Positions 277-54,695 of a DNA stretch of 60,200 nucleotides are shown here, piece after piece. Below the pieces are notes generated by a model. That model saw nothing but the letters and a program-made list of their open reading frames with translations, searched no databases and was not told the DNA's origin. Position 1 is the stretch's first letter. Every line of letters starts with the position of its first letter. The stretch is from Thiovulum sp. ES (GTDB lineage Bacteria; Campylobacterota; Campylobacteria; Campylobacterales; Thiovulaceae), in NCBI GenBank assembly GCA_000276965.1, contig AKKQ01000006.1, positions 1 through 60,200 on the forward strand. The letters run 5' to 3'. The position numbers were made by a program, and so were the translations under genes.

Positions 277-687
277 ATGAAAAAGTTTTTTCTCATTTTT
301 TTAGTTAGTTCTTCGCTTTTTGGTGGGGAACGATTTCAAATCTCTGGTGATCTCATCAAAGATTTCCGAACCGATTTGATGTGGCAAAGAGAAAGCAGTT
401 CCAACACGATGAATTGGAAAAGTGCCATTCAATATTGCGAAAATTTGTCTCTTGGCGGATACAGGGATTGGAGACTTCCACACATTGACGAATTGAAATC
501 AATTGTCAATTACAATGCATATAAACCAGCAACTTTTAACAGATTTAAACTAAAAACAACAGACTGGCATTGGGCTATAACAAAATATAATAATTCCAGT
601 TCTTGGATTGTCAATTTCAACGGTGGAGACGACGGTTGGGACCGTCAGGCAGACGATAGCTTTGCTGTTTGTGTCCGTGATTTATAA
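277..687 (+). CDS. Secreted DUF1566 (Lcl C-terminal, C-type-lectin-like) protein, probable diversified target
   Basis: A 136-residue protein with a signal peptide (residues about 1-17) followed by a single DUF1566 domain. Typical blocks are DLMWQ, the MNWKSA / YCENL / WRLP stretch, the DWHW motif and a terminal FAVCVRD. The same domain forms the C-terminus of the caspase gene at 1244-2926. The last 20 codons before FAVCVRD (601-660) differ from that paralogue almost only at first and second codon positions, while the following 22 nt (659-680) are identical. Domains of this fold are known variable proteins of diversity-generating retroelements, so this gene is probably such a target. No reverse transcriptase or template repeat is in the window. 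The ligand is unknown. The ATG is set by AAAAGGA upstream. Confidence 0.8.
   Translation: MKKFFLIFLVSSSLFGGERFQISGDLIKDFRTDLMWQRESSSNTMNWKSAIQYCENLSLGGYRDWRLPHIDELKSIVNYNAYKPATFNRFKLKTTDWHWAITKYNNSSSWIVNFNGGDDGWDRQADDSFAVCVRDL
601..680 (+). other. Candidate DGR variable region (VR1)
   Basis: In-frame comparison with 1254-1335 (reverse strand) shows tct tgg and gtc unchanged and ttt gct gtt tgt gtc cgt unchanged. In between, codon pairs such as ggt/aat, gac/aac, ggt/tat, cgt/ttt, gac/tac and gat/aat keep the third base and change the first two. I count 16 mismatches in 60 nt, 14 of them at codon positions 1 or 2, and every one can be explained by an adenine in a common template. The identical 22-nt tail (659-680) would be the homing-initiation side. 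Confidence 0.7.
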
Positions 688-688
688 T

Positions 689-718
689 CCCCGTATCGAG
701 TACGGGGCAAGTTTTTTT
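689..718 (+). terminator. Intrinsic terminator after the first DUF1566 gene
   Basis: Inverted repeat CCCCGTA (689-695) and TACGGGG (701-707) with a 5-nt loop, followed by a run of seven T at 712-718, one base after the stop codon. The stem also resembles the CCCGTG/CACGGG arm of the dispersed palindrome family, so the terminator may derive from that repeat. Confidence 0.7.
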
Positions 719-824: not shown

Positions 825-1109
825 TCAGAATAAATCGTTTAAGTTGATTTCATCAAAGTTTGGATTTTTCTCTTTTATTAAATTGAATTTCCAATCTCTG
901 TGCCAATTTTTCAACTGTTTTTCTCTTTTGAAAGCATCATCAATATTTTCAAAATACTCAAAGTAAATTAATTTATCCAAATGATTTTTTGCCGTAAAAC
1001 TTGTTGGGTTTATTCTGTTTTTATGCTCTTCGATTCTTCTAAAAAGATTATTTGTTGCTCCAATATAAATCATACTGTTGTTTTGACCTGTTAAAATATA
1101 AACAAATCC
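825..1109 (-). pseudogene. GIY-YIG nuclease-like gene lacking a normal start
   Basis: From the first ATG (1073) this reads as an 82-residue protein of the small single-domain GIY-YIG family: YIGATNN, then RRIEEHK, YFEYFENIDDAFKREKQLK and a WK segment. Family members normally begin with a strand such as G-Y-VYIL a dozen residues earlier. Reading upstream in the same frame gives exactly that (GFVYILTGQNNS, codons 1074-1109), but the frame is then closed within three codons by a TGA and has no ATG, GTG or TTG. The upstream sequence is a palindromic repeat (1135-1155). The natural start therefore seems to have been lost by repeat-associated rearrangement. Either the gene is dead or a truncated product lacking the first GIY strand is made from ATG 1073. 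Confidence 0.6.
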
Positions 1110-1134: not shown

Positions 1135-1245
1135 ACCCTGAAACAAGTTCAGGGATACTGTTTTTTCAGTATATCCTGAATTAATTTCAGTATCAGGGCT
1201 TCCGTTTTCTTCATTTTTGATACATGCTGAACTTGTTTCAGTATC
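1135..1245. repeat. Cluster of three CCTGAA..TTCAGG palindromes
   Basis: Three related inverted repeats occur within about 110 bp: CCCTGAAACAAGTTCAGGG at 1136-1154, a degenerate one around 1171-1197, and GATAC..CTGAA..TTCAG..GTATC at 1219-1245. The last runs into the stop codon of the caspase gene. They could act as transcription terminators, but none has a clear T-run. Confidence 0.6.
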
Positions 1246-2926
1246 ATTTCAAGTCACGGACACAAACAGCAAAGCGATTGTATGTCTGAAATTCCAAATA
1301 GTCGTTCCCATTGTTGAAATAGACACTCCAAGAGTTGGAACTATTACTTTTTATTATGGTTTGTGACCAATGCCAATCGCTTTTCAAGTTGAAAAAGTTT
1401 GAGTCAATTGCAGGATCTCTTTTTGAACGATCCGCAAGATAATAAAGCTCTTCAATTGTTGGAAGTCGAAAATCTGAATATCCATCAATTGATAAATTTT
1501 GACAATATCTTTTGGCACTCTTCCAATTCATTTGATTTGAAGAACTCTTTTTTGTCCAAACAAGATTTGTGTAGTTGTCTTTGACAAGATTTCTTGAAAA
1601 TTTTGAATAGCTTCTTTTTCCTTTGAAAATCCGTTTGTCCCACTCACCTTTTTTTGCTTTTGAACTTTGAGAAACATAACCAGAAGAAGTGCCTCCAATT
1701 TTGTCAAGTGAAACATCAAAAGAGCTATCACTTTGTAAATCAACTGTAACCAATTTTGTGTAGTAGCCAGACCGTTTCACCTTGATTTTGTATTTTCCTC
1801 TTTCAAGCAAAATTCCATCTCGATATTTTGGTTTGATTTTCATAATATAAACTTGGCTATCTCTTGGATAGGGATTTATTGTTAAAGCTACTTTTGATTT
1901 TACAAGTTTTGCTATGAATTTTGTATCTTTGGAAATTGTGATATTTTTTGAAACTGTTTCGTATCCAGATTTTGAGACTTCCACCCGATAATTTCCACTT
2001 TCTAAAAGATCACCATTTTGGAAACGATTTCCATCAACTCGAATTTGGAAACCTGAAACATTGCTAGAAACTGTCAAGAAAAATTCATCTCGTTCCTCAT
2101 TTGAAGCTGTAAAAGTTGTTTTTCCTGAAACTCCACCAGCAGAAATAAGCTCCTCTTCACTCGGCAACTTGAAATAGAAATCACCCCGAATTAAATTGTG
2201 TGTTACGGGTGTCTGCTTTCCATCTGTTTTTTGATAAACATCTTTCCGAACTGCTTTGAAAAATCGTTCGATTGTTTGTGGAGTCTCAATATTTTTGACA
2301 AAAGCATCAGCAAATGGTGAAAGTTTTCCATCTCCATCGTGTGCAACTTTTCCACTCTCGGCAGAATAGGCTATGAAAGTTCCAGAAGCTGAAAAAGAGG
2401 CTAATCCACCTCTCTTTTTGTTTCGAGTTGATCTGTATGGATTTTCCCGACAAGCATCAATCACGGCAATATTTAGCCGTTTTCCTGTCTCATTCATCGA
2501 TTCGATAATTGGGTTGAGTGGAGTTGAACGATACGGAACATATTTTTCATCAGAAACTGAAATATCATTTGGAATTAGATAGTTGATTCCATTCACTTCA
2601 ATTCCGTGTCCTGCAAAATAGAAGAGTCCGACACCCTCTTTTTGAGAACGAAGAAGTGAATAGAATTTTCCTAGTTTCTCTTGCAATTCCAAATCTGAAA
2701 TATTGTGTGCCTCGATAACTGTGAAGTCTAAAGCTCGTAGTTTTTTTGCAACTTTTTTGACATCATTTATCGGATTTTTGAGCTTGTCAAAATAGTTGCT
2801 TTTGGAATAGGAACTGTTTCCAACAACGAGTGCCACTTTTGGCTCAGCTTTCATTTTCAACCTCATCGCACGGTCAAGTGAAAAAAGTGATGAAAAAACT
2901 AAAATAGTTAAGAGAAAAATTCTCAT
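1244..2926 (-). CDS. Secreted caspase (peptidase C14) - PEGA - DUF1566 fusion, probable diversified target
   Basis: A 560-residue protein. It has a signal peptide (about 1-16), then a caspase-like domain (about 30-255) with the YFAGHG histidine (His107) and the VIDACRE cysteine (Cys159), so the catalytic dyad is intact. Two PEGA-type beta repeats follow (about 282-335 and 347-410), then a C-terminal DUF1566 domain (about 425-560) paralogous to the protein at 277-687. The end of the gene (1254-1335) shows the adenine-limited divergence expected of a retroelement-diversified variable region. The divergent neighbour at 3137 encodes a DUF4384 protein, a domain often found with caspases. I infer an exported, ligand-triggered protease whose sensor is hypervariable. 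Substrate and location (periplasm or surface) are unknown. Confidence 0.85.
   Translation of the reverse strand: MRIFLLTILVFSSLFSLDRAMRLKMKAEPKVALVVGNSSYSKSNYFDKLKNPINDVKKVAKKLRALDFTVIEAHNISDLELQEKLGKFYSLLRSQKEGVGLFYFAGHGIEVNGINYLIPNDISVSDEKYVPYRSTPLNPIIESMNETGKRLNIAVIDACRENPYRSTRNKKRGGLASFSASGTFIAYSAESGKVAHDGDGKLSPFADAFVKNIETPQTIERFFKAVRKDVYQKTDGKQTPVTHNLIRGDFYFKLPSEEELISAGGVSGKTTFTASNEERDEFFLTVSSNVSGFQIRVDGNRFQNGDLLESGNYRVEVSKSGYETVSKNITISKDTKFIAKLVKSKVALTINPYPRDSQVYIMKIKPKYRDGILLERGKYKIKVKRSGYYTKLVTVDLQSDSSFDVSLDKIGGTSSGYVSQSSKAKKGEWDKRIFKGKRSYSKFSRNLVKDNYTNLVWTKKSSSNQMNWKSAKRYCQNLSIDGYSDFRLPTIEELYYLADRSKRDPAIDSNFFNLKSDWHWSQTIIKSNSSNSWSVYFNNGNDYLEFQTYNRFAVCVRDLK
1254..1335 (-). other. Candidate DGR variable region (VR2)
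   Basis: Counterpart of 601-680. The constant 22-nt block lies at 1254-1275 and the variable codons at 1276-1335. The variable side contains several NNY codons (AAT, TAC, TAT, AAC, TTT) that keep the third base of the paralogue. The divergence stops sharply at the constant block. Confidence 0.7.
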
Positions 2927-3136
2927 AAAACCTCCTTAAATTTGTTAAAATTATAGAATATCCAAAGTTTTTAAAGTAATACCTTTATCCTAAAAGCCTT
3001 ATATCCCCATAGCTAATAGGGGCTTTACGGCTTGTTTTGTAAAATTCATTATTCGACTTAAAACTTATTGTATGCAAAAAAATCCTTTTGGTAATATTTC
3101 AAGTATTACATCGAAAAATCAAATAAAAGGTTTAAA
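2927..3136. promoter_or_regulatory. Divergent intergenic region between caspase and DUF4384 genes
   Basis: A 210-bp gap between two divergently transcribed genes, so promoters for both must lie here. It contains a nested inverted repeat (AAGCC..CCCC..GGGG..GGCTT, about 2996-3034), which could be a bidirectional terminator-like or operator structure. I do not see unambiguous -35/-10 pairs. Confidence 0.4.
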
Positions 3137-4159
3137 ATGAAAATGCTATTTTTTGGAATCCTGTTTTTAAGTTCAATTTTTGCAAACTCATATTCTGCAA
3201 TCGGCTACGGCGAAAATTTAAATGAAGCAAAAAATGATGCTCTCTCAAATTTAAGCATGAATATTCATTCGGAAGTCGATACCACTTTCAAAAAAGTTAC
3301 CGTTGTTCTTGGTGATGATTTTGAAAAAGAGAGTGGGCAAAATATAAAAATATCTTCAAATTTACCAATTTTAAATCCGAGTTTTTCTGAACCAAAATTT
3401 AAAGATGGTGCTTGGAAAATTACGGCAAAACTCCATAAAAAAACCTCATCAAAAAAATATATTTCTGAATTGAAAAATATTCAAATTGAAATTGAAAAAG
3501 GTTTGCAACTTTCCAAAAAACGAAAAGGAGAGAAAAAAGAGCAAATTCTTTTAGAGACTTTAGAGCATTTTAATAAGTTTCAGAAATATTCACTTGTTGC
3601 CCGTCAATTGGGAATTCCAAATATTCCAATTCTCCGTATTACAAAAGTTGAGATTGAAGAGAAAATGGCTGACACAATTAATGAAACTGGAAAATTTATC
3701 ACAACAAATTTGAAAATCGATCTCAAAACAGAACCAAACAAACACGATTTTATTGTTGGTGAAGAGCTAAAACTATATATAAAATTCTCCAAAAGTTCAT
3801 ATTTTTATATTGTAAATCATTCTCTCCCAAAAAATAAAAAATCTATCTCCTATTTGATGGAGCTAAATCCTTTTGAAGATGGTCGAAAACAGTTTGTTCA
3901 AAAAGTTGAGAACGATGAGGTCGGAAAATGGATCTCTTTAGGAGAATTTGAAATTTCTGATCCAATTGGAAAAGAGTATCTTGAGATTTTTGGAAGTCCA
4001 AGAGAATTTACAAAACGAGATTTCCCACCTTACAAATATAATTCAGATGAAAATTTGTATCTTTTGACAGGAAAAGGAATTATCACTAATTTTAAGAAAA
4101 CTCGGAAAATGAGAAAAAAATTTCCCCGAGCAACTTTCTATTTTAAATCAGAAAATTAA
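3137..4159 (+). CDS. Exported LPP20-like / DUF4384 protein
   Basis: A 340-residue protein with a signal peptide (about 1-16). The N-terminal third (SAIGYGENLNEAKNDALSNL) resembles the LPP20/FlgT-type fold, where alanine-rich helices follow a short strand. The C-terminal part (about 200-335, with LKIDLKT, GEELKLYIK and SYFYIVN) matches DUF4384. DUF4384 proteins are commonly encoded beside caspase-like peptidases, and here the caspase gene is divergent and adjacent. I infer a functional pairing, perhaps substrate or regulator. AAAGGT upstream of the ATG is the likely ribosome binding site. It contains a sense GATGAGGTC word at 3914. Confidence 0.65.
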   Translation: MKMLFFGILFLSSIFANSYSAIGYGENLNEAKNDALSNLSMNIHSEVDTTFKKVTVVLGDDFEKESGQNIKISSNLPILNPSFSEPKFKDGAWKITAKLHKKTSSKKYISELKNIQIEIEKGLQLSKKRKGEKKEQILLETLEHFNKFQKYSLVARQLGIPNIPILRITKVEIEEKMADTINETGKFITTNLKIDLKTEPNKHDFIVGEELKLYIKFSKSSYFYIVNHSLPKNKKSISYLMELNPFEDGRKQFVQKVENDEVGKWISLGEFEISDPIGKEYLEIFGSPREFTKRDFPPYKYNSDENLYLLTGKGIITNFKKTRKMRKKFPRATFYFKSEN

Positions 4160-15000: not shown

Positions 15001-15738
15001 TCATAGAATTGTGGAAATTTTCCACTTTAGTTGGTTGAATTTATTTCCAATTTCTAAGCAGAATTCTTTTCCGTTTTCAGTTGGTTGCCAAACATCATTT
15101 TCATCTCGAAATTGAAAGCCTTTTTTCTCTAAAATCAAATTCACTTCTGCTCCAGACATTCCCAAAAATTTTCCGAGTTCTGTCGGCAAAAAATATGAGT
15201 TTTTGAAACTTTTTCCAAATTGTTCTAAAAGAGATTCACCATTTTTGTTTTTGTGAAAAGTATCAAGTTCGATCTGTTCGACTGGATTCAAATCACGGAA
15301 TTTTGTCAAAATTTGGATTCCATTTTCAACAATTTCTAGGCTTGTTTGTGGAACATGTTTTTCAGTTTCGGCTTTTTTCTTAATTGAGTAAGAACCAGTT
15401 TTACGGATTTGTGGAAGAACTTCTTCAAAAATCCATTTTTCAATTTTTTCAGCTTCAGGCATTTCAGACTTGATTATAAGTCTCCAAACATCTGGTTCTT
15501 GAATCAATTTAACTTTTTTGTAATTGTTTCCAAAAACATCTGATAAATTCAACTGTCGCAGATCGCTACCTTTAAAGTTTTCAACCGTCGTGCTATTTTT
15601 ACAGTGCTTTGAAACGGCATCTCTGGTGTTTTTGTATTGCAAAATTTCTGCTATATCTTTTGCAATAAAATACTCTTTTCCATTAATTAACAAAATTCTT
15701 ACTTGAAAATCGTTAAAATCCTGAGTTATTAGGTGCAT
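15001..15738 (-). CDS. Bro-N antirepressor-like protein
   Basis: A 245-residue protein. The N-terminal Bro-N/KilA-like DNA-binding domain (about 10-115) has VRILLINGKEYFIAKDIAEILQY, then DVWRLIIKSEMPEAEKIEKWIFEEVLPQIRKTGSY, a hallmark of phage antirepressors. A spacer and a C-terminal domain follow (about 190-245: YFLPTELGKFLGMSGAEVN, then GFQFRDENDVWQPTENGKEF and NQLKWKIS). The same C-terminal domain ends the three proteins in the 50.8-54.7 kb island. The gene lies between direct repeats of the RM gene end and is divergent from a small RHH-like gene, so it looks like an inserted cassette. It contains no GATGAGGTC word, unlike most core genes here. Confidence 0.8.
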   Translation of the reverse strand: MHLITQDFNDFQVRILLINGKEYFIAKDIAEILQYKNTRDAVSKHCKNSTTVENFKGSDLRQLNLSDVFGNNYKKVKLIQEPDVWRLIIKSEMPEAEKIEKWIFEEVLPQIRKTGSYSIKKKAETEKHVPQTSLEIVENGIQILTKFRDLNPVEQIELDTFHKNKNGESLLEQFGKSFKNSYFLPTELGKFLGMSGAEVNLILEKKGFQFRDENDVWQPTENGKEFCLEIGNKFNQLKWKISTIL

Positions 15739-31534: not shown

Positions 31535-31990
31535 ATGAACCAAAATTCTAACACAAACCTTATTGAAATTATTGATAATGAATTAAGAATTTCACACAGA
31601 ATAATCGCCAAACAGACAGAAAATAAAGAAGAAACTATTTCTCGTTTAATCCGAAATTATCATGAAAAATTAGAACTTTTCGGACAGGTCGGATTTAAAA
31701 TCCAGACTGTGAAAAATTCGGCAGGTGCGATAAATGAGCAGAAAACTTTTTATCTTAATGAACAACAAGCAACTCTGCTTTTAACTTTTATGAGAAACAA
31801 TGAGATTGTTATTATTTTTAAAGTTAATTTAGTTAGTGAATTTTTTAATATGAGAGAAATTTTAGCTAAACAAAATTTTGACTTGCAAAAAATCCGTGAA
31901 AGAGCTGAACTTTTAGAAATTTTAGAAAAGGAATTTGGTATTTTGAGAGAGTTTTTTACAAACTTGGAATCGAGAGAAAAGAAGAATTAG
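31535..31990 (+). CDS. Rha-like phage regulatory protein
   Basis: A 151-residue protein with the layout of the Rha family (pRha): RISHRIIAKQTENKEETISRLIR, then FYLNEQQATLLLTFMRNNE and VNLVSEFFNM. A helical tail follows. It replaces the Bro-N domain found in the other cassettes. The frame of the next gene is open back into the end of this one (a GAG AGA AAA GAA GAA TTA reading near 31970-31990), so the two may once have been a single antirepressor split by a frameshift. Confidence 0.7.
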   Translation: MNQNSNTNLIEIIDNELRISHRIIAKQTENKEETISRLIRNYHEKLELFGQVGFKIQTVKNSAGAINEQKTFYLNEQQATLLLTFMRNNEIVIIFKVNLVSEFFNMREILAKQNFDLQKIRERAELLEILEKEFGILREFFTNLESREKKN

Positions 31991-50838: not shown

Positions 50839-51435
50839 TTACAAAAAGAGAACTTCGATTTTCCATTTGATTTGTGGGAAAGTTTCAGAAACATCAACTC
50901 CAAACTTTTGACCTTTTTCAGTCAATTTCCAAACTCCATCAGTTTTCATTTGCAAACCTTTTTCTTTAAAATTTTGATTCATTTCAACTGGTGAAATTCC
51001 CAAAAATTTTCCGAGTTCCGTTGGTAGAAAAAGCAAATTGTCAAAATTGATTTTCAAAGTTTCCAAAATTGAAATTCCATTTTGAGTTTTCACTAAATTA
51101 TCAAGTTGGATTTTCTCAAAAACATTTTTTGAGTTGAGAGTTTCTAAAACTTTTTCACCAAAATTGAGAGTTTTTTGAATTTCTTCAAAGTCAAGTTTTT
51201 CAGTTTTTTGTAGAGAATATGAACCAGTTTTACGAATTTGTGGAAGAACTTCTCTAGTTATCCATTTTTTAAAACTTTTTGCTGTTGGTAATTTTGAGCC
51301 AAGAATAGAACTGTAAAGACCAGATTCATTAATCAGAATGATAGAGCCTTGATTTCCAAAAAATCCTTCTGGAATAGACGATCGCCTATCACGGGCGACC
51401 GTTTTTTTCTCGTCATCGTCAAGTCTTCTAAGCAT
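50839..51435 (-). pseudogene. Bro cassette copy 1, N-terminally truncated
   Basis: The C-terminal two thirds (50839-51252) are nearly identical to the proteins at 52874 and 53961 (SYSLQKTEKLDFEEIQKTL, LPTELGKFLGISPVEMNQ, KWKIEVLFL). The Bro-N part begins only at MLRRLDDDEKK. Reading upstream gives LNYSETSK in frame and then TGA, whereas intact Bro-N domains have about 40 more residues (typically NG..WFVAKDV). The first DNA-binding strand and helix are thus missing, and an out-of-frame ATG just upstream suggests an old deletion or frameshift. A shortened protein may still be made. Confidence 0.7.
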
Positions 51436-52873: not shown

Positions 52874-53569
52874 TTACAAAAAGAGAACCTCAATTTTCCA
52901 TTTGATTTGTGGGAAAGTTTCAGAAACATCAACTCCAAACTTTTGACCTTTTTCAGTCAATTTCCAAACTCCATCAGTTTTAATTTGCAAACCTTTTTCT
53001 TTAAAATTTTGATTCATTTCCATTGGAGAAATTCCCAAAAATTTTCCGAGTTCCGTTGGTAGAAAAAGCAAATTATCAAAATTGATTTTCAAAGTTTCCA
53101 AAATTGAAATTCCGTTTTGAGTTTTCACCAAATTGTCAAGTTTGATTTTTTCAAAAACATTTTTTGATTTGAGAGTTTCTAAAACTTTTTCACCAAAATT
53201 GAGAGTTTTTTGAATTTCTTCAAAGTCAAGTTTTTCAGTTTTTTGTAGAGAATATGAACCAGTTTTACGAATTTCTGGAAGAACTTCACGACTTATCCAT
53301 CTTTGAAAAGGCTTAGCTACTGATTTTCGACTTCTCATAATCAAGGCATAAAGACCTGATTCAGAAACAATAGTTAGTTCTTGCTCACCTCCAGAGGTAG
53401 TCATTTTAAATGACCCCCTTTCGTCTTCTTCTAAATCTACAAGAAATTGTCTATTGTTTTTAATTTCTAAAACAACAGATATATCTTTTGCAACAAACCA
53501 AGGTTCGCCATTAATTAATACGGTTCTAATTTTTACATTTTGGAAACTGAATGGTAGAATTTCATTCAT
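52874..53569 (-). CDS. Bro cassette copy 2 (Bro-N antirepressor-like)
   Basis: A 231-residue protein. It has an intact Bro-N domain (about 8-110: VKIRTVLINGEPWFVAKDIS, ESGLYALIMRSRKS, RWISREVLPEIRKTGSY) and the shared C-terminal domain (about 96-231) found in copies 1 and 3. The C-terminal DNA (52874-53287) is nearly identical among copies while the Bro-N part is unrelated beyond family level. It lies directly after an HTH gene of the cassette family. Bro-N proteins bind DNA and antagonise repressors in phages; here the partner is presumably that HTH protein. Confidence 0.82.
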   Translation of the reverse strand: MNEILPFSFQNVKIRTVLINGEPWFVAKDISVVLEIKNNRQFLVDLEEDERGSFKMTTSGGEQELTIVSESGLYALIMRSRKSVAKPFQRWISREVLPEIRKTGSYSLQKTEKLDFEEIQKTLNFGEKVLETLKSKNVFEKIKLDNLVKTQNGISILETLKINFDNLLFLPTELGKFLGISPMEMNQNFKEKGLQIKTDGVWKLTEKGQKFGVDVSETFPQIKWKIEVLFL

Positions 53570-53960: not shown

Positions 53961-54695
53961 TTACAAAAAGAGAGCTTCGATTTTCCATTTGATTTGTGGG
54001 AAAGTTTCAGAAACATCAACTCCAAATTTTTTGCCTTTTTCAGTCAATTTCCAAACTCCATCAGTTTTTATTTGCAAACCTTTTTCCCTCAAGTTTTGAT
54101 TCATTTCAATTGGTGAAATTCCCAAAAATTTTCCGAGTTCCGTTGGTAGAAAAAGCAAATTGTCAAAATTGATTTTCAAAGTTTCCAAAATTGAAATTCC
54201 ATTTTGAGTTTTCACCAAGTTATCAAGTTGGATTTTTTCAAAAACATTTTTTGAATTGAGAGTTTCTAAAACTTTTTCACCAAAATTGAGAGTTTTTTGA
54301 ATTTCTTCAAAGTCAAGTTTTTCAGTTTTTTGTAGAGAATATGAACCAGTTTTACGAATTTGTGGAAGAACTTCTTCCATGATCCACTTTTCAATTTTTT
54401 CAGCTTCTGGAAGTCTTGATTTAATAATCAATCGCCAAACATCAGACTCTGGAATTAGTTTAATTAACCTTGCTTTTGAGCTAAAATTTGCATTCGGTAT
54501 TTTACCGATCTCAAAATCAACTGCTCGTTTGCAATGTTGAGAAACTGCATCGGCTGGTCGCTTATAGCTTAAAAGTTCAGCTATATCTTTTGCCACAAAG
54601 TGTTCTATTCCATTAATTACAATAACTCTAATTTCTGAAGAGTTGAAAGAAAAAGTATTTATTTGTGGGGAAGTTGATATAATTTTATCATTCAT
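53961..54695 (-). CDS. Bro cassette copy 3 (Bro-N antirepressor-like)
   Basis: A 244-residue protein. Its Bro-N part (IRVIVINGIEHFVAKDIAELL, ESDVWRLIIKSRLPEAEKIEKW) is closest to the Bro gene at 15001, whereas its C-terminal part (53961-54374) is nearly identical to copies 1 and 2. The gene is thus a chimera that links two families, direct evidence for exchange of the N-terminal domain. It lies downstream of the HTH gene at 54788. Confidence 0.83.
   Translation of the reverse strand: MNDKIISTSPQINTFSFNSSEIRVIVINGIEHFVAKDIAELLSYKRPADAVSQHCKRAVDFEIGKIPNANFSSKARLIKLIPESDVWRLIIKSRLPEAEKIEKWIMEEVLPQIRKTGSYSLQKTEKLDFEEIQKTLNFGEKVLETLNSKNVFEKIQLDNLVKTQNGISILETLKINFDNLLFLPTELGKFLGISPIEMNQNLREKGLQIKTDGVWKLTEKGKKFGVDVSETFPQIKWKIEALFL

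Follow-up and report, generated by a model that had tools for sequence, protein, structure and literature searches.

Caspase-like proteins have been described among the targets of diversity-generating retroelements (DGRs) in cyanobacteria, where DGR variable proteins with orthocaspase-like N-termini were reported and mostly predicted to be cytosolic (Vallota-Eastman et al. 2020, PMC7517822). In Thiohalocapsa PB-PSB1 the DGR-varied CLec domain is a putative sensor of conflict systems, and one of the targets there is a CHAT-protease (PNAS 2024, PMC10907252). Of the Pfam domains found in DGR targets, DUF1566 is the commonest (PMC6642488), and the DUF1566-containing C-terminal domain of the Legionella Lcl protein forms a trimer which its authors likened to C-type-lectin-like domains (PMC11162425; PDB 8Q4E/8QK8). 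The genome paper on Candidatus Thiovulum stygium reports highly transcribed ‘retron-type’ reverse transcriptases, and its main text does not mention caspases or retroelements (PMC9938260). We found no literature on a Thiovulum DGR or on an exported caspase target in a search whose coverage excluded most subscription journals.

The DNA studied here (the window) is a 60,200-nucleotide stretch of contig 6 (C6) of Thiovulum sp. ES, starting at the first base of that contig; the source assembly (G000), a draft of 2.08 Mb split into 206 contigs, is 96.7% complete. It was compared with a sister species in the same genus (G001) and with Ca. T. stygium (G004), which belongs to the same family and to a different genus. 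An open reading frame of 560 amino acids on the reverse strand (1244-2926; ORF list and Pfam) encodes a C14/paracaspase-like domain (Peptidase_C14, 1e-31), two stretches of PEGA (4.7e-11) and a C-terminal Lcl_C/DUF1566 domain (4.4e-25), in agreement with a preliminary description of this DNA as to the position of the gene, its two PEGA repeats and its C-type-lectin-like end. The same description had called the product an exported caspase with an intact His/Cys dyad, and this is supported by a hydrophobic stretch at residues 3-21, compatible with a signal peptide (by hydropathy only), and by the catalytic pair H107/C159, both of which align with the catalytic residues of the MALT1 paracaspase, the only PDB family that the caspase part matched in a sequence search (2e-14). 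A profile search matched the DUF1566 domain to the Lcl C-terminal domain in the PDB (1e-5), and two AlphaFold2 models covering the fusion and its variable face were both too poor to use (pLDDT 47 and 48). The fusion was sought elsewhere, as had been proposed, and it recurs in related genomes. The expectation that close homologues keep the catalytic dyad stands for nearly all of the caspase members, and the exception is a VR-bearing paralogue in the sister species (G001:C31, L121:2497-3828, reverse strand) in which DSSR replaces DACR and the catalytic Cys is lost; from its sequence this protein would be a pseudoprotease sensor. No relatives of the fusion were found in the viral contigs searched, and the plasmids searched contained caspases without any locus that matched 80% of the fusion.

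Divergently from the caspase gene lies an exported ORF of 340 amino acids (3137-4159, forward strand; Pfam) with weak similarity to LPP20 and DUF4384. The ORF is present and divergent, at the position originally given; its description as an LPP20-like/DUF4384 gene corresponds to two matches that both fall below the Pfam gathering scores (21.6 bits against 27 for DUF4384, and 19.8 bits against 25.9 for LPP20). Its pairing with the caspase was rejected, because the gene neighbourhood is not conserved in G001, G003 or G004, where no caspase was found within about 1.4 kb of the homologues of this ORF; this ORF is therefore unlikely to be the caspase's partner. The other neighbours are housekeeping genes (a chorismate-binding enzyme, MlaD, an ABC-3 permease, a glycosyltransferase, THDPS and a cytochrome) and not NTPase and adaptor genes, so a STAND/MoxR-type DGR conflict system was rejected as a description of this locus.

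The variable region (VR) of the caspase gene lies in its last ~30 codons (1253-1346, reverse strand) and has an invariant, IMH-like 3' end at 1254-1273. A second DGR target in the window is a short signal-peptide DUF1566 gene (277-687, forward strand; 136 amino acids; Pfam), the N-terminus of which is similar to that of the caspase fusion and the VR of which (587-680, forward strand) has its invariant 3' end at 661-680. The C-terminal ends of these two DUF1566 domains lie in inverted orientation and are 78% alike over 112 nt. Between these two copies alone, 15 of the 18 differences affect codon position one or two (p = 0.07), and an argument for diversification from the window's two copies only was set aside as not decisive.

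The organism's genome encodes 22 Lcl_C domains, 13 of which, distributed over 11 contigs, have in common an end of ~95 nt, the VR, which gives the genome a minimum of 13 VR-bearing sites. The invariant 3' end, TTTGCTGTTTGTGT, is present in 13/13 of them. Within the 75 columns ahead of this invariant end, A is among the letters in all 31 of the 31 polymorphic columns (relabelling test, P = 1.5e-4), and variation affects 28 of the 50 first and second codon positions compared to 3 of the 25 third positions (P = 2e-4), bearing out the preliminary view that the DUF1566 end is variable. Mean pairwise identity among the 13 VRs is 0.35-0.52 upstream, rises to 0.66-0.86 in the VR and to 0.99 in the invariant end, and is 0.43 beyond it. 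This profile, together with the A-containing polymorphism, is what copies of a single template made with adenine errors would show.

Three of the 13 VR genes are caspase fusions (in the window and on contigs C89 and C45), and the rest are genes for coiled-coil proteins, for a lipoprotein that has two Lcl_C domains and for a UvrD fusion, besides ORFs that are truncated or short and the window's short gene. The UvrD fusion joins a UvrD/REP helicase to a VR-bearing DUF1566 domain (L159:2557-4656, equivalent to G000:C40:8056-10155, reverse strand), and a DGR-varied helicase would be unusual. Long coiled-coil proteins ending in a variable DUF1566 domain are encoded at L160, L037 and L161 (G000 contigs C96, C86 and C80); VKTGTKEVQDG-like repeats occur in some of the coiled-coil VR proteins, and no other clear Pfam domain was recognised in them. 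A sequence at C60:8474-8506 (L151:1501-1533) was rejected as a template, being only a decayed VR end, an orphan without a DUF1566 frame.

A hairpin 3' of the variable region helps DGR homing in the Bordetella phage BPP-1. Directly after the VR of the short gene stands the hairpin CCCCGTATCGAGTACGGGG (689-707, forward strand), and a hairpin of the form CCCCGTATC(A/G)AGTACGGGG was found directly 3' of 8 of the 13 VRs, including this one. It is absent elsewhere in the window, its exact A form is absent elsewhere in the other loci compared, and the caspase's own VR is without the exact hairpin. A GIY-YIG ORF with a relative in the sister species (825-1073, reverse strand; Pfam; 53%) adjoins the short DUF1566 target, as does that relative in the sister (L034:9861-10100), and this adjacency is possibly linked to homing or possibly due to chance. 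Short palindromic repeats of the CCTGAAACAAGTTCAGG type recur between genes, at 773-810 and 1129-1166 of the window.

In the sister species the DGR is complete, with a gene row of caspase-PEGA-DUF1566, an Avd-like gene, the template (TR), the reverse transcriptase (RT), a short DUF1566 gene and GIY-YIG, and the short target of the window (277-687) is 68% identical to its counterpart there. The RT has the motifs YVDD and IGNLTSQ, the second of which is the DGR-type motif 4 (IGxxxSQ). The Avd-like gene matches NCBIfam DivGenRetAVD at 5.8e-7 and Pfam bAvd at 8e-5, both below cut-off, and its putative assignment as Avd is supported by these sub-threshold matches and by its position. Comparison of the TR with six VRs of this genome gave 57 changes in 150 A sites, against 10 in the 282 sites with another base (Fisher test, 2e-20), and the four closest VRs differ from the TR by 33 A changes and one other. 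Taken with the 13-VR test in the window's genome (the window alone having given p = 0.07), this upholds the preliminary claim of a retroelement-diversified sensor, and the sensor of the caspase is almost certainly diversified by a DGR. Five of the six matched VRs are carried by caspase ORFs on separate contigs of G001 (C22, C30, C5, C31 and C36), so that a single element serves several caspase genes at unlinked sites. In the proteins on C30 and C31 a transmembrane segment is predicted to separate the caspase from the sensor, and a signal peptide is lacking; others have a lipobox or a signal peptide. A KilA/BRO-like protein is encoded beside the sister species' DGR and near other VR genes, and it has a domain in common with several related genes of the window (15001-15738, 31535-31990, 50839-51435, 52874-53569 and 53961-54695).

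A relative of the G001 RT is present in 21 of the 298 Campylobacterales genomes sampled, and several of the loci have a recurring module of a large target, Avd, RT and a short exported DUF1566 gene; the large target of such a module is a surface protein of PKD, cadherin or Ig type. In a genome of a different family (G016, L200) a caspase-PEGA protein with an FGE-type lectin end is encoded beside an RT, and in the best 60-nt window of that locus 8 of 8 mismatches are at template A. Together with the DUF1566 targets, this means that within the order caspase and diversified lectin are combined using two unrelated lectin types. Elsewhere (L208:2392-3753, G082:C58) an exported protein in which the order of DUF1566 and caspase is reversed is encoded beside an RT fragment; the repeats there are not A-directed and this locus was rejected as a working DGR.

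No RT, Avd or template was found in the window's own assembly. In G001 about 270 bp separate the end of the RT from the short DUF1566 gene downstream of it, and the window's counterpart of that gene begins 276 bp from the contig end, so the RT is likely to be in the gap beyond it, positions 1-276 being on the side where the missing RT would be expected. The avd-TR-RT of this genome probably lies off the contig edge, and we infer that RT and template are present in the window's species outside the assembly. Contig C36 carries another caspase, cut at the contig end, but a join of C36 and C6 across the assembly gap was left unproven because the genes upstream of the C36 caspase show no synteny with those of the sister species. 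The failure to find RT, Avd or template in an assembly that is 96.7% complete could also mean that the DGR is dead here, its RT lost and its VRs frozen relics, and in the related Ca. T. stygium the RT and Avd have indeed decayed to fragments, which lie between two DUF1566 genes. However, silent positions are near-identical across the 13 dispersed copies despite diverged flanks, which argues for recent homing, and the contig ends at the expected RT site in an assembly whose 206 contigs leave many gaps; a dead element is thus unlikely and the DGR is likely to be still active. With 22 paralogous DUF1566 domains in one genome, gene conversion among paralogues combined with diversifying selection might vary the domain end with no retroelement involved, but neither conversion nor selection would be expected to restrict the sister changes to template A (2e-20) or to place A in all 31 polymorphic columns, and this very improbable explanation was rejected on these two results.

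The best overall explanation, and one that we consider fairly probable, is that one DGR rewrites the sensors of several effectors and that the exported caspase is ligand-gated. An Avd-assisted RT would copy the template, misreading adenines, and in 13 or more dispersed target genes the cDNA would take the place of the VR at the 3' end. After export the caspase fusion would be in the periplasm or on the cell surface, where its variable lectin-like face would bind a changing ligand, and ligand binding or clustering, the DUF1566 of Legionella Lcl being trimeric, would gather the caspase domains together as an active paracaspase-type envelope protease, probably Arg/Lys-specific; the gating, the protease specificity and the biological role are here what we infer. 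Against this explanation, RT, Avd and template are missing from the window's own assembly, the caspase VR is without the exact hairpin, one VR-bearing sister paralogue is without the catalytic Cys and many of the targets are not caspases. The retargeted protease of the preliminary description is one possible reading, for which recognition of prey, phage or kin would be a conceivable role. The variable domain might instead deliver the protease to chosen proteins, the DGR altering what is cut, in keeping with PEGA domains that tether a C-terminal binding domain to an exported protease and with the same alternative proposed by the cyanobacterial authors for kinase targets (PMC7517822). However, the same VR is also carried by non-proteases, and in C30 and C31 the caspase and sensor are on opposite sides of the predicted membrane segment, an arrangement ill suited to handing the protease straight to substrates. 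This placing of the segment, between a cytosolic caspase and the sensor, makes a receptor-like protease preferable to a steered one, and ligand gating is the favoured fit for the transmembrane sister members. Substrate targeting as an account of the whole is rather unlikely, and we put the chance that the protease is gated by ligand rather than targeted to substrate at about even. It is also conceivable that the caspase processes itself or its neighbours to display the lectin domain, as an adhesin, since other DUF1566 DGR targets in Campylobacterales are PKD/cadherin/Ig surface proteins without a protease and a Cys-to-Ser paralogue exists, but the dyad is kept in nearly all caspase members and the caspase is predicted to be cytosolic in two sister members, leaving such a maturation role quite improbable.

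To return to the ligand-gated explanation, a single template may rewrite several exported or membrane-spanning caspases to give an antibody-like, anticipatory set of ligand-triggered proteases, an extension that we offer tentatively and regard as somewhat doubtful. If true, it would be a parallel-diversified receptor-protease repertoire in a free-living unicellular bacterium, with three caspases here and five matched in the sister species. More generally, the binding specificity of the caspase can change fast while the protease part stays constant, one retroelement feeds many unlinked genes, the helicase fusion included, and the trigger of a bacterial caspase becomes directly testable, as it is known codon by codon which variable residues must bear the specificity.

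Caspase-lectin DGR targets are already known from cyanobacteria, and the exported DUF1566-PEGA form in Campylobacterota is a well-supported addition to them. The known range of DGR-caspase targets, which took in cyanobacteria and further bacteria of multicellular or filamentous form, is extended to exported proteins of Campylobacterota. Like the cyanobacterial orthocaspase targets (PMC7517822), the proteins described here have a caspase-like N-terminus and a C-terminal DGR-varied CLec, at remote loci too, but they differ in their DUF1566 type of CLec, their PEGA spacers, their export signal or lipobox and their occurrence in Campylobacterota. The use of a DGR-varied CLec as a putative sensor is common to the Thiohalocapsa PB-PSB1 targets (PMC10907252), whereas that organism uses STAND or MoxR NTPases with adaptor domains, and here the protease is exported and its neighbours are housekeeping genes. 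The known DUF1566 DGR targets (PMC6642488, PMC4159848) belong to the same Pfam family and the described cases have no fused caspase, and Legionella Lcl likewise has the same Pfam family and a C-type-lectin-like structure with no caspase fused to it. MALT1 paracaspase and bacterial C14 proteins have the same caspase core, with the H and C aligned, but the fusion differs in being exported and in its PEGA-DUF1566 tail, which stands in place of death or Ig domains.
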